From the NCBI GenBank assembly GCA_030640045.1, contig DAOWKF010000070.1:1-14483 (forward strand): 14,483 nucleotides of DNA, in the 5' to 3' direction. Positions 4,800-14,479 of the stretch are shown here, in pieces (the stretch's first letter is position 1; every line of letters begins with the position of its first letter). The translations under genes were made by a program, and so were the position numbers. The notes under the pieces are model-generated. The model did no database searches. It saw only the letters and a list, made by a program, of their open reading frames with translations, and had not been told where the DNA came from. This stretch comes from Candidatus Omnitrophota bacterium (GTDB lineage: Bacteria; NPL-UPA2; BS750m-G34).

Positions 4800-5963
4800 A
4801 TGAGTGAATATAAAGGGTTTTATAAAATTGATAACTTTCATAAGATTTTGAATAAGGTAGTTGAGATAGGTGCATCGGACCTTTTCCTTATCCCGGGCAA
4901 TGTGCCTGTGATAAGGGACCAGGCTGATGGAAAGCTTTATTCTATTAAAAAATATTTTTCTAAGGATATAAATTTTCCCACTTTAAAAAAAGAAGATACA
5001 GCGTTTTTGGAAAATAAGATGCTCACCCAGCGGGGTTTTAGTTCTTCAAAGGAATTTCAGGATTTCAACTTTAGCTATGAGGCAGATGGTGCAAGATTCA
5101 GGGTAAATCTCAACCGGAATGTCAATGGCACAGGATTTGTCCTGAGGCGTATTCCTCCCAAGACCCCTACCATAGAAAGTCTAAAATTTACGCCTATGGC
5201 TGAAATGAGATTAAAATATATGGCTAAAGAGTATGACCGGGGTTTAATCCTTGTCACCGGCCCTACCGGCTGTGGTAAGAGCACAACCCTGGCATCACTT
5301 ATCCACGAGATGAAATTGATACATCATTATAATCTTGTTACTATCGAAGATCCTATTGAGTTTGTCTATAAACCAGAGGATGTTAAGGAGGATTTTCAAC
5401 TGGATAATATTATTCAGCGGGAAGTAGGCCTGGATACACCTTCTTTCTATGATGGGCTCAAGAATGCCTTGAGACAAAACCCGAATGCCATTCTTGTGGG
5501 AGAGATAAGGACAGAAGAGGTAATGGAAGAGACGCTTGCTGCTGCCAATGCAGGACATCTCCTCATGGGGACGTTACATGCCAACGATGCCAGGCAGGCA
5601 ATTGAGCAGATAGTGGAACTATTACCGTCACAGAAGCCCGAGACAGTTTATAAGAAGTTAGCCAATGTGCTTGTGGCAATCGTCTCCCAGAAGCTTTTAC
5701 CCAAAACCGATGGGACAGCCAGAATCCCTTGTTGTGAGATGTTGATCCGCACACCTTCCATTGTAGGCCTGCTCCAGGAAGGACAGATTATTGGTATAAA
5801 GGATCACTTGAGAGGTAATCCTGACCACAAAGATGAGCCTTTGAGTTATTTCGATGAACTGCGCTATTTGGCTAAAGAAGGTATTATCTCAGAAGATCTG
5901 GCCAAACGCACCTCCGGAAGCATCAAGGATATGGATTTGATTTTACGGGGGATTATGAAGTAG
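4800..5963 (+). CDS. pilT: PilT-like type IV pilus retraction ATPase
   Basis: Cytoplasmic hexameric motor ATPase of the PilT/PilU family, which would drive pilus retraction. Motifs in the 387-residue protein: Walker [10 protein letters not shown] at 154-162, Asp box TIEDPIE at 181-187, Walker [10 protein letters not shown] at 229-237, and His box [12 protein letters not shown] at 252-263. The N-terminal domain has the usual [16 protein letters not shown] opening. It differs from textbook PilT at RTEE (237-240), where RD-x-E is usual. It is also about 40 residues longer, with a less conserved C-terminus after [16 protein letters not shown]. No other pilus genes are in the window, so PilT and PilU cannot be told apart. 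ATG 4800 has AAGGAG at optimal distance. CobT starts 8 bases after the stop. Confidence 0.85.
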
Positions 5964-8741: not shown

Positions 8742-9817
8742 AACACGGTGGTAATGTATGGGCAATTGAGAGAAAATCTCATCATAGATTTGACCGGTTC
8801 CTGGATTTTAGCTCGAATATAAATCCATTAGGGCCTCCCACGCGGGTAAAAGAGGCAGTGCTTAACGGAGTTAAAAAATTGCCTTGTTATCCTGACCCGG
8901 AATATATCCGCTTGAGGAAAGGGGTATCCAATTTTCTCGGGGTAAATTTATCATCCGTCTTTGTCGGGAATGGCATCAGCCAGATTATAGATCTGGTGAG
9001 CCGCTCTTGCAATTTTAAAGAGGCAGTTATAGTAAATCCTACATACAGTGAATACGAGCAGGCGTGTCTTAAGGCTAAGATTCCTGTAACCAATTTCGTT
9101 ATGAAAGAGAAAGATAATTTTATCTTGGATGAGGAGATATTTTATAAAATTCTGGGGACAAAAAAAGAGGCGGCTATATTTTTATGTAACCCGAATAACC
9201 CAACAGGGACTTTTATCCAGCGTCCATTTTTTGAAAGATTACTAAAAAAGGTATCTTCAAAGAGGCAGTGGCTGATAGTTGATGAGGCATTTATTGATTT
9301 CACCCCGCATGGCCGTAAGGATAGCCTTATCCATCTTATTAATACATATCCGCGTCTCGTTGTCCTCTGGTCGCTAACAAAGATATTTAGTATCCCGGGT
9401 TTGCGTATAGGCGCAGCAATAGCGAACAATAAGATTATTGAAAGGCTTCAAGCCATAGCCCCGCCGTGGAGTGTAAATATTTTAGCTGAAGAGGCCACCA
9501 TGGCCTCCCTGAAAGATAAAACCTTTTTAAAGAAAACAAGCTGCTGGATTAAAAAGGAGAAAAAATATCTTTCAAACAGTCTCAAGAAGTTTGATAACTT
9601 AAAGGTCTATCCTTCGGAGGCACCTTTTTTCCTTATCAAGATATTGAATAAGCGTATTAGCGCTCGCGCGCTAAGCAATAAACTTCTTTCTCATAAAATT
9701 CTTATCAGGGATTGTTCTAATTTTCAACACCTGGATAGATTCTTTTTTCGTATAGCTATTAAGGATAGAACAAGCAATAGAAGACTCATTTTTGCATTAA
9801 CAAGATATATAAAATGA
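8735..9817 (+). CDS. cobD: threonine-phosphate decarboxylase (CobD), PLP-dependent
   Basis: Predicted to decarboxylate L-threonine O-3-phosphate to (R)-1-amino-2-propanol phosphate, the side arm added by CbiB. It is a fold-type I aminotransferase-like enzyme of 360 residues: LDFSSNINPLGPP at 23-35 (characteristic of CobD), GNG at 78-80, NPNNPTG at 152-158, VDEAF with D183, SLTK with K216 as the PLP lysine, and GLRIG with R224. HisC is the close relative. The N-terminal motif and the position directly after cbiB favour CobD. The cysteine-rich C-terminal extension found in Salmonella CobD is absent. ATG 8735 overlaps cbiB by seven bases; the stop overlaps larE by four (ATGA). Confidence 0.87.
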   Translation: MVKHGGNVWAIERKSHHRFDRFLDFSSNINPLGPPTRVKEAVLNGVKKLPCYPDPEYIRLRKGVSNFLGVNLSSVFVGNGISQIIDLVSRSCNFKEAVIVNPTYSEYEQACLKAKIPVTNFVMKEKDNFILDEEIFYKILGTKKEAAIFLCNPNNPTGTFIQRPFFERLLKKVSSKRQWLIVDEAFIDFTPHGRKDSLIHLINTYPRLVVLWSLTKIFSIPGLRIGAAIANNKIIERLQAIAPPWSVNILAEEATMASLKDKTFLKKTSCWIKKEKKYLSNSLKKFDNLKVYPSEAPFFLIKILNKRISARALSNKLLSHKILIRDCSNFQHLDRFFFRIAIKDRTSNRRLIFALTRYIK

Positions 9818-10611
9818 TTGCAGAAGAAAAATTTGTAAAGTTAAAAGCTATCCTGCGTGAGATGGGTAGTGTAATTATTGCCTATTCCGGGGGGGTGGAT
9901 AGTACTTTTTTAGTCAAGGCAGCTAAAGACACCCTGGGGGAAAAGGCCCTGGCAGTAATTGGCACCTCGCCCGCATATCCTCAAAAAGAATTTAAAGAGG
10001 CGAAGGATTACGCGCGGGAGATAGGTATACGATATGTAGTCATCGAGACTAAAGGAATCTCAGACCCGTCTTTTTCTTCTAACACGCGCGAACGCTGTTA
10101 TTATTGTAAAAAAAGGCTTTTTAGTAAAATTAAAGAGAGAGCTATGAAAGAGGGCATACAGTTTATTCTGGATGGAACTAACATGGATGACCAAAAGGAT
10201 TTTCGACCGGGGAAGAGGGCCTTGCAGGAATTAAATGTCCGAAGTCCCCTTCTTGAGGCCGGTCTTTCCAAGGAAGAGATTAGAAAACTTTCGCGGGATC
10301 TCAAACTCCCTACATGGGATAAGCCTGCTCAGGCCTGTCTCTCTTCACGCTTTCCTTACGGAGAGGAGATAACCGAAGAGAAACTTAAGAGGATAGAAGA
10401 GGGGGAGAGGTTTATTCAGTCCCTCGGGTTCAGGCAGGTCAGACTCAGGCACTATGGGAAACTGGCCCGGATTGAAGTTGATAAGGAAGATATCCAAAGA
10501 TTTTTTAAAGACAGCGTGAGAGAAAAAATTATAGATAAACTCTTAAACCTCGGCTATACCTACGTTACACTTGACCTCGAAGGATATCGCACAGGGAGTT
10601 TGAATAAATAA
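9814..10611 (+). CDS. larE: LarE-type ATP-dependent sulfur transferase, three-cysteine form
   Basis: LarE thiolates the pyridinium biscarboxylate precursor of the nickel-pincer nucleotide cofactor used by lactate racemase and relatives. The 265-residue protein has the PP-loop SGGVDSTFL at 25-33, RERCYYCKKRLF at 92-103 with C95 and C98, DGTNMDDQKDFRPG at 120-133, and AQACLSSRFPYG at 172-183 with C175. C175 matches the sacrificial cysteine of Lactobacillus LarE. The added CxxC matches LarE proteins that hold a [4Fe-4S] cluster through three cysteines and deliver sulfur catalytically. ATG 9814 overlaps cobD by four bases. No larA, larB or larC is in the window, so the acceptor could differ. It is the last gene before the AT-rich island. 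Confidence 0.87.
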   Translation: MIAEEKFVKLKAILREMGSVIIAYSGGVDSTFLVKAAKDTLGEKALAVIGTSPAYPQKEFKEAKDYAREIGIRYVVIETKGISDPSFSSNTRERCYYCKKRLFSKIKERAMKEGIQFILDGTNMDDQKDFRPGKRALQELNVRSPLLEAGLSKEEIRKLSRDLKLPTWDKPAQACLSSRFPYGEEITEEKLKRIEEGERFIQSLGFRQVRLRHYGKLARIEVDKEDIQRFFKDSVREKIIDKLLNLGYTYVTLDLEGYRTGSLNK

Positions 10612-10657
10612 CCTTTTTACGAAAAGTTTGTGAATCTATTTAGTATTATCTGGCTAA

Positions 10658-12820
10658 TCACGATAGATTATAATATTTTTTATAATAGCTTAGTCTTTTT
10701 CTGAAGAATTTTTCTAAATATTCTACTTTTCTATCTCTGTAATCATAAATATATTTATTCTGAATATCACCTCTTTGAATTCTACCAATATACTGTGTCA
10801 ACTTTCCAGAAAAAGCAAATGGATATACTAAAAATAAAGAGTCTAAATTATCGAAATCAGAACCTTCTCCTATTAATTGCCCTGTTGCTATTAATATCTG
10901 AAAATTATTTGACTTAATTTGCTTTATTTTTAATTTTCTCTCTGACTCCTTTAAATCTCCAGTTAAAGTTATTGTTTCATATTCACGCTTTAGATAATAA
11001 TTTAAAACATCAACATGATCCTTACGTTCTGTTAAAACAAGCACTCTTAGATTCTTATTAACACAACTTTTAATATCATCTACTATTTTTTGGTTTCTAT
11101 TTGAATCAAAAATTAAAATTTTAGATAAAATTTGAAAATCATCAGTTTTTATTTTAAAGGGGATAAAAAGGTCAGTATCTTGGATTATTATCTTAGGTTT
11201 TCCATTAATGCTTTTCTGATGATGTTTAATAGATGATATGTCACTATTTTTGATTGTATATAAAATTCTACCAAGATAAATAAAGATTAATTTAGCATCA
11301 TTATTTTTTCTTTCTGGGGTAGCTGTTAATCCATATAAATAATAAGGATTAAACCTTGTTATTACGTTACGAAACATTCTTGCAGGCATATGATGACATT
11401 CATCTACAATAATCATCCCGAATTCTTTGCTAATACTTTTAAAATCAGAAATTCGATTATATGTTTGAATCATTCCCACACTAACTTTTTCACCTAAACT
11501 TTTTTTACCTGCACCAAATTGACCTATCTCTCTTTTAGGAATGTTTAAAAAATCTTCAATCCGTTCAATCCATTGGTTATAAATTTGTTTTTTGTGTACT
11601 AATATCAAAGTACGTTGTTGTAACTTTTTTAAAATTTCAATTCCAATGATAGTCTTTCCAGAACCAGGAGGTGCGACAAGAATTCCATTATCTGATAAAA
11701 TTATATTTTGAACAGCTTCTCTTTGGTAGTCAAATAATTCTAAATCTGAATTATACTTGATTAAGTCGGATTGAGTTCTGTTATCTTTGATCTCATATTT
11801 AATTTCATGTTTATTTAAGAAATCACATAGATCATCAAAAAAACCTCTTGGAATAGCAACAGTATCTCCATCTGTTTCAATAAGCTTAAAATATTTCTCA
11901 ATATTGTAAACATTCAAACCCATCCGCTTCTTAATTATATAATCATAATTTAAAAAATTTAGATTTTCTTTTAAGAAATTAACCAATATCTTAGGTAAAT
12001 TAGACTTATTCAAATATATATGATCATTTAGATTAATAAATAATTTTTTTCCAGAACCATATTTGTAAAATCTTTTATCTTGACTGAATTCATTGTATAA
12101 ATTATCTAATCTTTCAATAGGTATTTTTTCTATATTTAGTAAAAATTCCCACTGCTCTTCATATGGAATGAAATTTTCCCTATAATCAATAAAGATTGAA
12201 TTATTTTTCTTCCTTGAATTTCCTTGTAATGGCAATACGATTAAGTTTCCTATTCCTTTGCCGCTCAACAAATCCTGATTTGGGAAAAGTCGATCAAAAC
12301 TATCTTCTTTGTCAAACTGATCGACTATCTTAACATTTTTAAGTAATGAGAATATAATTTTTCTACTTTTATAAGCAGGATATTTATCAATGAAAAATAA
12401 CCATACATGTCCACCTTTACCAGAACGAGATCTTTCTAAATAAGCAGGAAGATTAAATTTCGCACATTCATGAATAAAATTCACAGAATCATTTTTCCAA
12501 TTATCACCATCAAAATCTGCTGCAATAAAACAGGAAGTATTATCATCTAACAATGGATATATACCGTATGTTTTAATTCCGCTTAAATGTTGTTTAATAT
12601 AATTTTCATTTAAAGATGGATATTTTTTATTGTCACAATCCTTACATTTTCCTTTTTTCAATTTCAAACATAACTGATTTTTCCATTCATTTAAACAAAC
12701 AGGAGTGTAGCCACTGGCAGATTTATCAGCTTTTTCCCAACGAACTGCAAAAATATCCTTCCTTCCTTTAAAAAGGTTGTTATATATCTCAATCTTATCT
12801 TTTGAAGATAATCTTTCCAT
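10658..12820 (-). CDS. TOTE-type archaeo-eukaryotic primase fused to a superfamily II helicase
   Basis: A 720-residue conflict-system protein. The N-terminus (7-62) has the FKGRKDIFAVRW opening and four cysteines (C42, C51, C59, C62) likely to bind zinc. The primase domain follows: AADFDGD with D102 and D104 as metal ligands, LERSRSGKGGHVWLFF with H138, FDRLFPNQD at 175-183, and GNLIVLPLQG at 191-200. These match the AEP domain named for TOTE conflict systems. After a linker (about 240-355), the helicase has APPGSGKT (383-390), VDECHH (472-477), GLTATPER (497-504) and TQYIGRIQR (675-683), an XPB/RecG-style DNA translocase set. No nuclease domain is seen. ATG 12820 has only a weak AAGATGA ahead. 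The gene is very AT-rich compared with its flanks, suggesting acquisition. A role against invading DNA is inferred. Confidence 0.85.
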   Translation of the reverse strand: MERLSSKDKIEIYNNLFKGRKDIFAVRWEKADKSASGYTPVCLNEWKNQLCLKLKKGKCKDCDNKKYPSLNENYIKQHLSGIKTYGIYPLLDDNTSCFIAADFDGDNWKNDSVNFIHECAKFNLPAYLERSRSGKGGHVWLFFIDKYPAYKSRKIIFSLLKNVKIVDQFDKEDSFDRLFPNQDLLSGKGIGNLIVLPLQGNSRKKNNSIFIDYRENFIPYEEQWEFLLNIEKIPIERLDNLYNEFSQDKRFYKYGSGKKLFINLNDHIYLNKSNLPKILVNFLKENLNFLNYDYIIKKRMGLNVYNIEKYFKLIETDGDTVAIPRGFFDDLCDFLNKHEIKYEIKDNRTQSDLIKYNSDLELFDYQREAVQNIILSDNGILVAPPGSGKTIIGIEILKKLQQRTLILVHKKQIYNQWIERIEDFLNIPKREIGQFGAGKKSLGEKVSVGMIQTYNRISDFKSISKEFGMIIVDECHHMPARMFRNVITRFNPYYLYGLTATPERKNNDAKLIFIYLGRILYTIKNSDISSIKHHQKSINGKPKIIIQDTDLFIPFKIKTDDFQILSKILIFDSNRNQKIVDDIKSCVNKNLRVLVLTERKDHVDVLNYYLKREYETITLTGDLKESERKLKIKQIKSNNFQILIATGQLIGEGSDFDNLDSLFLVYPFAFSGKLTQYIGRIQRGDIQNKYIYDYRDRKVEYLEKFFRKRLSYYKKYYNLS

Positions 12821-12868
12821 TTATTTCATCTTTTAATTTTTGTAAATTTGATTATGGTTTGTATTAAC

Positions 12869-12925
12869 AACTAACATAAAGATGAGTGACGGCGGAACAC
12901 CGTTCACTCCATTAACTAGTTAGAA
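12869..12925 (-). other. attC-like imperfect hairpin between DUF2442 and the primase-helicase gene
   Basis: Outer arms CTAAC (12871-12875) and GTTAG (12919-12923) are complementary. After short unpaired spacers, an inner stem pairs GAGTGA-CGG (12884-12892) with CCG-T-TCACTC (12900-12909), leaving one extra base, and can extend by ATG/CAT with a second extra base. Both extra bases are on the same arm. The loop is CGGAACA. The total is about 57 bases. This matches the plan of integron attC sites (RYYYAAC ... GTTRRRY outer boxes, inner stem, one-sided extrahelical bases); the outer boxes fit 6 of 7 positions each. It starts 9 bases after the DUF2442 stop, where an attC would sit in a cassette. 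A transcription-pausing or regulatory hairpin is the alternative. It lacks a clean T-tract, so it is not a standard terminator. Confidence 0.45.
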
Positions 12926-12931
12926 AATTTA

Positions 12932-13192
12932 TTATTTGTAGTTTAAAGGATATCTTTCTGGATTTTCTAAAATTTCTGTGGATAAATCAACATCTAATTC
13001 TGGCCAGTATAGATGGTGATTATGGAAGAGTTTTACATTAATTATTGATGATATTTTAGTATTTTTGAACCAGGGATATTTTTCGAAAGGAAGAAAATAT
13101 TCTTTCGCTTTCAATAGAATCCAGAATCCATGCTCAGAAATATTAGTTATTTCTGGTTTTAAGGTGTTTTTCCCATTTTTTAATAATTTCAT
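12932..13192 (-). CDS. DUF2442 small protein, putative antitoxin-like partner
   Basis: An 86-residue protein with the DUF2442 pattern: NISEHGFWILL near 18-28, YFLPFEKYPWF at 32-42, then LFHNHHLYWPELDVDLS at 55-71 and an ending ENPERYPL. DUF2442 genes often travel next to DUF4160 genes in bacterial genomes and are suspected toxin-antitoxin-like pairs; no activity is established that I can state. The ATG at 13192 is supported by AGAAAGG seven bases ahead. This makes the gene overlap the end of the DUF4160 gene by 50 bases, an unusually long overlap. AT-rich like the rest of the island. The attC-like hairpin follows the stop. Confidence 0.82.
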   Translation of the reverse strand: MKLLKNGKNTLKPEITNISEHGFWILLKAKEYFLPFEKYPWFKNTKISSIINVKLFHNHHLYWPELDVDLSTEILENPERYPLNYK

Positions 13193-13391
13193 TTTTATGC
13201 CTTTCTATAATTTTCTGTAAAAAATTTAATTCTTTTTTGGATAAGCCAGAATAATTTGCTAATGAAATTATCGGTTCTAACCAAAATTTCGCTTCACCAT
13301 CAGGGGACACAATATGAATATGAATTCTATCTTCCTCTTTGGAGAAAAAATGGAATCTATATTTCCCTTCTTTGAATACTGTTGGACTCAT
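13143..13391 (-). CDS. DUF4160 small protein
   Basis: An 82-residue protein matching the DUF4160 pattern: SPTVFKEGKYRFHFFSKEED (2-21), IHIHIVSPDGEAKFWLEPI with its HIH core, SLANYSGLSKKELNFLQKII, and a C-terminal W-x-x-HL helix. The family usually has PPHIHV at the core; here it is RIHIHI. ATG 13391 follows TGAGGAAA eight bases upstream, and an extended -10 promoter lies just ahead, so this is the first gene of the - strand unit. It is translated before and overlaps DUF2442 by 50 bases. The function of the family is not known to me beyond the suspected toxin-antitoxin association. Confidence 0.84.
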   Translation of the reverse strand: MSPTVFKEGKYRFHFFSKEEDRIHIHIVSPDGEAKFWLEPIISLANYSGLSKKELNFLQKIIERHKNEIIKKWEKHLKTRNN

Positions 13392-13410
13392 AAACTATTT
13401 CCTCAACATA

Positions 13411-13439
13411 ATTATAACATATTCTATTTTATTTTCCAT
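13411..13439 (-). promoter_or_regulatory. extended -10 promoter of the DUF4160-DUF2442 unit
   Basis: On the - strand, TATAAT (13416-13411) is preceded by TG one base upstream, giving a TGnTATAAT extended -10. The -35 region 17 bases upstream (ATGGAA) is poor, as is common with extended -10 promoters. The start point would fall near 13404, with TGAGGA and the DUF4160 ATG right behind it. Confidence 0.5.
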
Positions 13440-13440
13440 A

Positions 13441-13480
13441 GTTTTTTAAGGATTTGTTTTTTAAGGATTTTTAAGGATTA
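13441..13480 (-). repeat. tandem 15-base repeat upstream of the DUF4160 promoter
   Basis: GTTTTTTAAGGATTT occurs twice without a gap at 13441-13455 and 13456-13470. A partial third copy (TTTTTAAGGATT) follows at 13468-13479. It ends just upstream of the -35 position of the - strand promoter. Read on that strand it gives A-tracts next to AATCCTT. It could be an UP-like element, an operator array, or a scar near the right end of the island. Confidence 0.6.
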
Positions 13481-13514
13481 ATTTGAAAAACGATATATTT
13501 TTTCAAGATAATTG

Positions 13515-13543
13515 TTGATTGGAGTGTGTGGGTTCTTTATAAT
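13515..13543 (+). promoter_or_regulatory. sigma70-like promoter of ftsY
   Basis: TTGATT (13515-13520) and a perfect TATAAT (13538-13543) are 17 bases apart. The predicted start point, about seven bases after the -10, coincides with the ATG at 13550. Confidence 0.55.
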
Positions 13544-13549
13544 AACAAT

Positions 13550-14479
13550 ATGCTAAGATTATTTCGCAGGGAAAAACACGCTACACTAAAGCAGGGGCTT
13601 TTTAAGACGCGGCTTTCTTTAAAAGAACAGCTTAAGGTTTTTTTGAAGAAAGGGAAGGTGGATGTAGATATCCTTACCGAGCTTGAAGAGATACTTATTT
13701 TAGCTGACTGTGGTGTCAAGATAACAATGGAGGTAATGGCGTCTTTGAAAGATTCTATTGTAAATAAAGGATTAAAACAAAGGGAAGAGGTCTATTGGGA
13801 GTTGAAAGGAGCCCTTAAAAATTTTTTATCTAATTCACCGCGCGCTTTATCTATATCCCCTTCGCCGGCAGTCTTTTTATTTGTAGGCGTTAATGGAAGC
13901 GGGAAGACTACCTCGCTTGCAAAACTCGCTTATCGATTTAAGAAGGAGGGTAAGAAGGTGCTGCTCGCAGCCGGTGATACCTTTCGGGCGGCAGCCATAG
14001 AGCAGTTAAATCACTGGGGTGATAGATTGGGGGTTGATGTAATCCGGCATGATTATGGCGGGGATAGCGCAGCTGTGGCGTATGATGCGGTTACTGCAGC
14101 AAGGTCCAGAGGGATAGATTGTCTCCTGATAGATACTGCGGGCAGACTCCAGACAAAGGTGAATTTGATGGAGGAGTTAAAAAAGATGTCAAGAGTGATC
14201 GCCAAGGTTTTGCCGCAGACCCCTCATGAGAAGATCCTTGTCGTGGATTCTACTTTTGGCCAGAACTCCATTTCCCAGGGGAAGCTCTTTCACGAGTTTA
14301 TAGATTTGACAGGGATGGTTTTAGCTAAACTCGATGGTTCGGCAAAAGGCGGGGCAATATTGGGCCTTGAGAATGAATTAGGCGTGCCTGTTAAGCTCGC
14401 TGGCGTGGGAGAAGGAATAGAAGACCTGGTAGATTTCGATCCGGGGGAGTATATTGATTCACTACTAAGTATTGATTGA
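13550..14479 (+). CDS. ftsY: signal recognition particle receptor FtsY
   Basis: SRP receptor GTPase that docks ribosome-nascent chains with the SRP at the inner membrane. The 309-residue protein has a short basic N-terminus (MLRLFRREKH), a helical N domain (about 20-95), and a G domain: GVNGSGKT at 113-120, DTFRAAA at 143-149, DTAGR at 195-199, AKLDGSAKGG at 259-268, and GVGEGIEDL at 285-293. The long acidic A domain of E. coli FtsY is absent, as in many bacteria. The usual TKLD is AKLD here, a common mild variant. I prefer ATG 13550 over the GTG at 13526, which would add eight residues but lies upstream of the -10 box and therefore outside the predicted transcript. No Shine-Dalgarno precedes 13550. 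The GC level returns to that of the non-island genes. Confidence 0.93.
   Translation: MLRLFRREKHATLKQGLFKTRLSLKEQLKVFLKKGKVDVDILTELEEILILADCGVKITMEVMASLKDSIVNKGLKQREEVYWELKGALKNFLSNSPRALSISPSPAVFLFVGVNGSGKTTSLAKLAYRFKKEGKKVLLAAGDTFRAAAIEQLNHWGDRLGVDVIRHDYGGDSAAVAYDAVTAARSRGIDCLLIDTAGRLQTKVNLMEELKKMSRVIAKVLPQTPHEKILVVDSTFGQNSISQGKLFHEFIDLTGMVLAKLDGSAKGGAILGLENELGVPVKLAGVGEGIEDLVDFDPGEYIDSLLSID

Follow-up and report, generated by a model that had tools for sequence, protein, structure and literature searches.

A predicted toxin-antitoxin pair and a TOTE-family primase-helicase share an AT-rich block between larE and ftsY in a Candidatus Omnitrophota genome

Genes at the locus

We analyzed a 14,483-nucleotide stretch of DNA from a Candidatus Omnitrophota bacterium (contig DAOWKF010000070.1 of assembly GCA_030640045.1), here called the window, in which a primase-helicase gene lies downstream of a pair of genes for DUF4160 and DUF2442 proteins. 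A preliminary description of the sequence had placed these three - strand genes in an AT-rich block between two + strand genes, with the DUF pair upstream of the primase-helicase and transcribed in the same direction. Base composition and open reading frames (ORFs) confirm this layout: positions 10652-13540 have a GC content of 26.7%, compared to 42.1% elsewhere in the window, and contain three - strand ORFs flanked by larE and ftsY on the + strand. The block holds a stand-alone AEP primase-helicase of the TOTE family with intact motifs, preceded by a toxin-antitoxin (TA) pair of the DhiTA type. Comparison loci and genomes are cited below by L and G numbers. The main genes and domains are as follows.

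10658..12820, - strand: AEP (TOTE-family) primase-SF2 helicase gene, 720 amino acids (ORF list, Pfam, alignments)
12101..12799, - strand: primase domain of the AEP-TOTE family; its conserved positions are four cysteines, the DxD and SxxxxH motifs, and a third acidic residue (PF22548; a genome search confirms its place)
10772..11743, - strand: SF2 helicase domains, ResIII/DEAD and Helicase_C (Pfam; nearest solved relatives XPBII/Rad25)
12932..13192, - strand: DUF2442 protein, 86 amino acids, DhiA-type antitoxin by homology (Pfam, relatives; function as given in passages of PMC8198452 and PMC12724237)
13143..13391, - strand: DUF4160 protein, 82 amino acids, DhiT-type toxin by homology and first gene of the pair (Pfam, relatives at most 94% identical)
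9814..10611, + strand: larE, left border (93% nucleotide identity to the sister genome)
13550..14479, + strand: ftsY, right border (ATG at 13550, GTG at 13526 according to the ORF caller; 95.5% nucleotide identity to the sister genome)

The primase-helicase

The 720-residue protein matches the Pfam family AEP-TOTE with 287 bits (cut-off, 27) over residues 8-240, in line with the profile check that had been proposed for residues 1-240. It also matches ResIII (111 bits, residues 360-504), Helicase_C (39 bits, residues 586-683), and DEAD. The primase DxD residues D102 and D104, as well as S133, H138, D176, the helicase motifs GKT and DExH, and the motif VI arginine R680, are invariant among 20 diverse sequences, window included, down to 32% identity. 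Cysteines C42, C51, C59, and C62 show no variation among 27 closer sequences, window included. The protein is as had been described, a primase with intact DxD and H motifs joined to a complete SF2 helicase; the four cysteines are a candidate for the zinc that the description had assigned to it. The family is widespread (7058 of 8000 scored candidates matched), with the nearest relative 67% identical. The primase was not found in 8 other genomes of the same phylum, of which the sister genome G001 is only 58% complete. No phage record matched at E 1e-30, and viral contigs yielded 19 matching loci, one of them (L134) near full length, while two further scans gave none. A phage origin was rejected on these grounds.

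The likeness to TOTE conflict systems (TPR, OB, TBP, Effector; name after Aravind et al. 2022, as cited in a passage of PMC12458937) stands in part. The N-terminal domain falls in AEP-TOTE, with an SF2 helicase fused to it, but the TOTE partner genes are absent from the block, and the partner in the window is a TA pair instead. No Pfam match to TPR or OB/cold-shock families was found in the three block genes or their two neighbors, and none of these five encodes a TATA-binding protein, a search that did not extend to the rest of the genome. For want of these partners in the block, a TOTE system proper was set aside.

The nearest solved structures are 7nqd/7nqf for the AEP domain and 6p4f/5tnu, of the XPB-II/Rad25 type, for the helicase core. 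We take 7nqd and 7nqf to be CRISPR-associated primase-polymerase (CAPP), and the PADLOC PrimPol model also scores 222 bits. In contrast to CAPP, the window protein has a fused helicase and reaches 113 bits against an NCBIfam cut-off of 200. Pfam assigned none of the seven window proteins that it covered to a cas family. Identity with CAPP was likewise set aside, on scores and partner genes. Unlike XPB-II/Rad25-type helicases, the window's family is fused to a primase and found with toxins and restriction genes.

The DUF4160-DUF2442 pair

The DUF4160 gene (Pfam, 55 bits) precedes and overlaps the DUF2442 gene (46 bits) on the same strand, which is the DhiTA layout. In Dickeya dadantii, passages of PMC8198452 report that DUF4160 (DhiT) blocks growth, that co-expressed DUF2442 (DhiA) prevents the inhibition, and that the pair represses its own promoter. 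In Thermus, as described in part of PMC12724237, such a pair ('PEM') stabilizes a plasmid, and a construct with DUF4160 and without DUF2442 gave no transformants, suggesting toxicity and rescue. A marine survey counts DUF4160/DUF2442 among its TA annotations (passage of PMC12654330). The window pair shares Pfam families, toxin-first order, overlap, and lengths with what these passages describe for DhiTA; it differs in an overlap of 50 bases compared to 3 in Dickeya, and in scoring 20.3 bits with the NCBIfam DhiT model, for which the cut-off is 100. Because of this score, the window's DUF4160 appears to be a distant branch. As the model is narrow, the low score weakens an identification as DhiT itself, not as a TA system of the DUF4160/DUF2442 kind.

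By homology, we assign the pair to the DhiTA kind of TA systems. Toxicity and neutralization would follow those of the relatives in the literature, and the pair could serve as the suicide arm that had been suggested. DUF4160 relatives on other contigs are up to 94% identical, three loci with relatives of DUF4160 lie in viral contigs, and one relative (P0220) is a DUF4160-DUF2442 fusion. No solved structure matched the DUF4160 or DUF2442 profiles at E 0.1.

Upstream partners of close relatives

Neighboring genes were classified at 27 loci, window included, whose protein is at least 42% identical to that of the window (L002-L008, L098-L102, L120-L124, L126, L127, L134, L162-L165, L169, and L170). 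A same-strand toxin or TA, RhuM, or restriction partner lies upstream at 16 of the 27 and downstream at 1 of 25 (p=1.8e-5), the latter being a Zeta toxin (L127). Besides the window, the 16 comprise 15 of 26 other close relatives, two of which qualify through genes further upstream (L120 and L162). The bias persists without these two (14/27, p=1.4e-4) and when the RhuM clade is counted once (p=2.9e-4). The upstream partners, assigned by Pfam, are given below.

TA toxin or pair, 9 loci: DUF4160-DUF2442 (window); MntA-HepT (L002); Fic (L098, L099, L102, L165); RHH-PIN, VapBC-like (L101); AbiEi-AbiEii (L126); AbiEii (L134)
RhuM, 4 loci: L003-L006
Restriction type: TdeIII endonuclease and methylase (L164)
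Restriction type: NOV_C protein, with an SNF2 helicase and a 5mC methylase further up (L162)
Restriction type: WYL-type regulator, with HsdR further up (L120)

The sample is uneven: L120-L122, L127, and L134 encode proteins of ~1000 amino acids, and L102, L126, and L165 are partial. It includes the loci that suggested the pattern; a toxin or restriction partner is present at four of the seven added later (L134, L162-L165, L169, L170). Downstream neighbors are missing at contig ends for L006 and L102, and those of L007, L134, and L165 were counted as negative without a Pfam scan. At L003, L098, L121, L124, L126, and L164, the nearest ORF was small or overlapping, and the scan took the next larger one. 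Left out were L104 (a 138-amino-acid primase fragment with an upstream Fic gene 90% identical to that of L098), L119 (a primase-helicase split over two ORFs, with an upstream peptidase on the opposite strand), and L097 and L125 as repeats of L002 and L005. The neighbor classification did not cover L096, L103, or the Bacteroidota proteins of greater size and distance (~33% identity; L105-L118, L128-L133). At the Dysgonomonas locus (L005:1113-5955), the primase-helicase is preceded on its own strand by genes for a TIR-domain protein, HsdR, and RhuM.

A tree of 54 proteins, built by a quick method with SH-aLRT support only and some long branches, places L162 (restriction-like set; SH-aLRT, 88) and L002 (MntA-HepT; 81) nearest to the window, both under the 95 mark. 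Two sister relationships with support of 99 join different partners: L098 (Fic) with L164 (TdeIII), and L120 (HsdR set) with L134 (AbiEii). Mapped on the tree, the partner labels require 25 changes (minimum, 13; shuffled mean, 30.2), and none of 200 shuffles was as low. Partners are thus partly inherited and often exchanged, with sister branches differing in partner.

Co-occurrence of the three genes

The preliminary description had proposed that the DUF pair and the primase-helicase form one module, and had named relatives carrying either without the other as speaking against it. Both situations are common. G009, the genome that contains L002, probably belongs to Patescibacteria. In its phylum, AEP-TOTE occurs in 11 of 286 genomes (9 over the cut-off), DUF4160 in 5, and both in none, although only 0.2 would be expected by chance. 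By profile, DUF4160 is absent from 45 stretches (43 distinct) around other primase-helicases, some of which are short contigs, and it was not found in 4 of the 7 genomes searched. The DUF4160 profile recovers 34 of 35 loci, but was trained on those loci. The DUF2442 profile that we built matched none of the 35 DUF4160 loci and is too narrow for any claim on DUF2442 absence.

An obligate DUF4160-DUF2442-primase-helicase trio would account for the shared strand and order in the window and for some recurrence elsewhere. In Bacteroidota, the phylum of the Dysgonomonas genome, AEP-TOTE occurs in 29 of 395 genomes, DUF4160 in 151, and both in 20; DUF4160 is present in 20/29 primase genomes compared to 131/366 others (p=5.9e-4). 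This excess exists at the genome level only, the neighborhood not being shared, and may reflect mobile-gene load or kinship. A conjugative plasmid of Azotobacter also carries DUF4160-DUF2442 upstream of a primase-helicase, yet one extra gene intervenes, which L186 and L193 carry in the absence of a DUF pair, and the plasmid's DUF4160 is 29% identical to that of the window. The plasmid arrangement seems more likely to be an independent assembly. With the flank scans and the phylum of G009 speaking against it, an obligate trio is highly improbable.

A protein of 181-187 amino acids, 68-77% identical between copies, is encoded at L174:3328-3873, L186:2325-2876, and L193:2307-2870. Its gene overlaps the start of the plasmid primase-helicase gene by 8 bases, and the L174 copy has no Pfam match. 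It is possibly a dedicated partner.

Plasmid relatives and mobility

Among 72,556 plasmid records, 100 match the primase-helicase, all at <60% identity, and 42 of the 100 are conjugative. We sampled 27 of the 60 listed records, mostly one per species and at ~30-34% identity. The gene table of these plasmids is incomplete by its own description, so that the immediate upstream gene is the listed one. This gene is of TA type in 6 of the 27: HigB-HigA, AbiEii, NYN, an MbcA/ParS/Xre antitoxin, and HipA in two, at 289 and 460 bases from the primase-helicase. In three 50-kb stretches from three of the sampled plasmids, 1 of 145 non-TA genes lies directly behind a TA gene (p=5.6e-5); without the NYN gene, the count is 5/27 (p=3.6e-4). 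A divergent RES-MbcA/ParS pair in L185 was left uncounted. Across both samples, 13 of 22 partnered loci have a gap of at most 45 bases (3-39), measured from ORF-caller starts.

In seven alphaproteobacterial plasmids of the sample (L175, L181, L182, L183, L184, L194, L197), the primase-helicase faces three consecutive tyrosine recombinases, an arrangement that presumably resembles the 'recombinase in trio' elements. Other sampled plasmids have TniQ or Tn3-type genes beside it. Because of these neighbors, part of the family looks like transposon cargo.

These data bear on the idea of a replication or mobility module, in which an integrative or transposable element would use the protein as its primase-helicase and be stabilized by the TA pair. 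The plasmid records, the conjugative fraction, the recombinase and transposon neighbors, and the serine recombinase that L170 follows all fit such a role. However, neither an integrase nor a transposase ORF lies in the block, and long terminal repeats were not found; the scarcity on plasmids means that the protein is not their usual replicase; phage and viral records are as poor as described above; and the primase-helicase is also found beside restriction genes. We regard this idea as improbable. The Tn7-like transposon cargo described in part of PMC8649781 likewise mixes toxins, TA pairs, and restriction or other defense genes. Unlike that cargo, the block has no transposase, and the passages in question do not mention the primase-helicase.

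The larE-ftsY site in the sister genome

G001, the sister genome from the same genus, has a shorter gap between larE and ftsY, which holds an antisense ParE (108 amino acids) and Phd/YefM (93 amino acids) pair (L011:748-1352). The proposed comparison of larE-ftsY spacing thus shows that the sister lacks the block in this gap, but the sister gap is AT-rich as well (29% GC) and carries another TA pair. AT-richness is common to different cargo at this site and thus does not single out one module. The different ParE-Phd pair of the sister indicates that TA cargo is exchanged here, and the view of the block as acquired is supported.

10627..10649, - strand: 23-base stretch common to the sister genome (2 of 2000 shuffles score as high)

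This stretch follows larE in both genomes. In the sister, it lies inside the last codons of parE (ILLNRFTNK); in the window, where it comes right after the primase-helicase stop, that frame reads IILNRFTNFS and then a stop. In the 15 plasmid homologues listed, the ParE alignment reaches residue 104 or 105 of 108. The stretch may be the scar of a former ParE-Phd pair, with common intergenic ancestry as the alternative.

The source genome consists of 138 contigs and is 71% complete with 3.4% contamination. A second ftsY end lies at the end of another contig (L019, contig C20 of G000; 5775-5906, 44 residues, 89% identical), followed by RNase Y-like and other genes, and this second partial ftsY points to a strain mixture in the bin. 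Such an assembly could in principle have joined an AT-rich block from another organism. Against such an artefact, the flanks are 93-95.5% identical to a sister whose gap is also AT-rich and antisense, and the 23-base stretch is common to both at the junction; we give the possibility almost no weight.

Sequence features within the block

The spacer between DUF2442 and the primase-helicase measures 111 bases. Two features were noted in the noncoding parts of the block.

12884..12909, - strand: spacer hairpin (fold z-score, -2.3; 6 of 200 shuffles as good)
13411..13438, - strand: promoter-like site with an extended -10, ahead of DUF4160 (consensus match only; 21 such sites found in the region compared to 19.4 expected)

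The hairpin is GC-richer, and its sequence was not matched in viral contigs or in the other fetched loci. A scan found no terminator-like site at the hairpin, so that read-through from DUF2442 into the primase-helicase is possible, if unproven. Just upstream of DUF4160 (13440-13480) lie three near-tandem TTTTTAAGGATT-like repeats, a possible operator.

Coupling or co-residence

Our leading explanation, held tentatively and at a little below an even chance, is that in close relatives the primase-helicase is a constant component that may be coupled to, or travel with, interchangeable growth-arrest cargo. As part of the same tentative explanation, the block was acquired horizontally, and larE-ftsY is a site where small gene sets, selfish or defensive in nature, come and go.

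Several points weigh against coupling. No same-strand partner was found upstream at 11 of the 27 close loci: L163 has a Pif1 helicase there, L170 a serine recombinase, and L127 a CHAP protein, and the rest have opposite-strand genes, such as RecQ, Zeta toxin, or Fic, or nothing recognized. TA toxins proper, taken alone, give 9/27 upstream compared to 1/25 downstream (p=0.012), and counts on any strand are 18/27 and 4/25 (p=2.7e-4). Operon layout by itself favors same-strand upstream genes, and a defense-island effect without coupling would explain part of the pattern. Partners are partly inherited, since labels are partly clustered on the tree. In the plasmid sample, 21 of 27 relatives lack an upstream partner, many lying beside transposases or recombinases, and same-strand TA genes within two genes downstream (3/27) do not differ in number from the 6 upstream (p=0.47). 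In the window, the 111-base gap with its hairpin makes a single transcript across the block uncertain.

Simple co-residence is a serious rival, if one with a smaller share of our confidence: a cargo spot would collect TA pairs and accessory genes that are neighbors by chance and have no functional link. In the sister genome, the same gap contains only an unrelated TA pair. DUF4160 relatives elsewhere are 94% identical while the nearest primase-helicase is 67% identical, and the two therefore have different histories. Toxin genes occur downstream in L100, L123, L127, L179, L186, and L191, and the plasmid counts are alike on both sides. As a control, 49 upstream genes were taken from the same chromosomal stretches. 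The families listed for them include restriction and Kiwa genes; no TA toxin appears among the 25 of 69 families listed, an absence that is unproven with 44 families unseen. General clustering does not, however, predict the upstream same-strand bias or the gaps of 3-39 bases.

Coupling could work as follows. The toxin operon would be autorepressed, with a labile antitoxin. The primase-helicase would engage and process invading DNA by unwinding and priming, assuming that it targets DNA, and the upstream toxin or nuclease would bring about growth arrest or DNA attack. As an addiction module, the toxin would also keep the gene set from loss, and the TA operon might drive, or guard, the primase-helicase if the genes are co-expressed.

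A stronger version, which we consider unlikely, is a modular immune or stability system whose constant part, a stand-alone AEP primase-SF2 helicase, is linked to upstream effectors that can be swapped (DhiTA, MntA-HepT, Fic, VapBC-like, AbiE, HigBA, HipA, RhuM, and restriction endonucleases). In such a system, the primase-helicase would be the DNA-recognizing or -processing core and the toxin its exchangeable output.

The domains and both kinds of genes are known. Searches of the open PMC full text found no paper linking TA systems to the primase-helicase, and its association with interchangeable upstream toxins is apparently new relative to that literature. In this uncultured lineage, represented here by 9 genomes, larE-ftsY is a TA exchange spot. 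Primase-helicases of this family are common, and we found no function assigned to them. If they do form the constant half of systems whose toxins are exchangeable, many TA and restriction loci that now pass as 'ordinary' would gain a partner.

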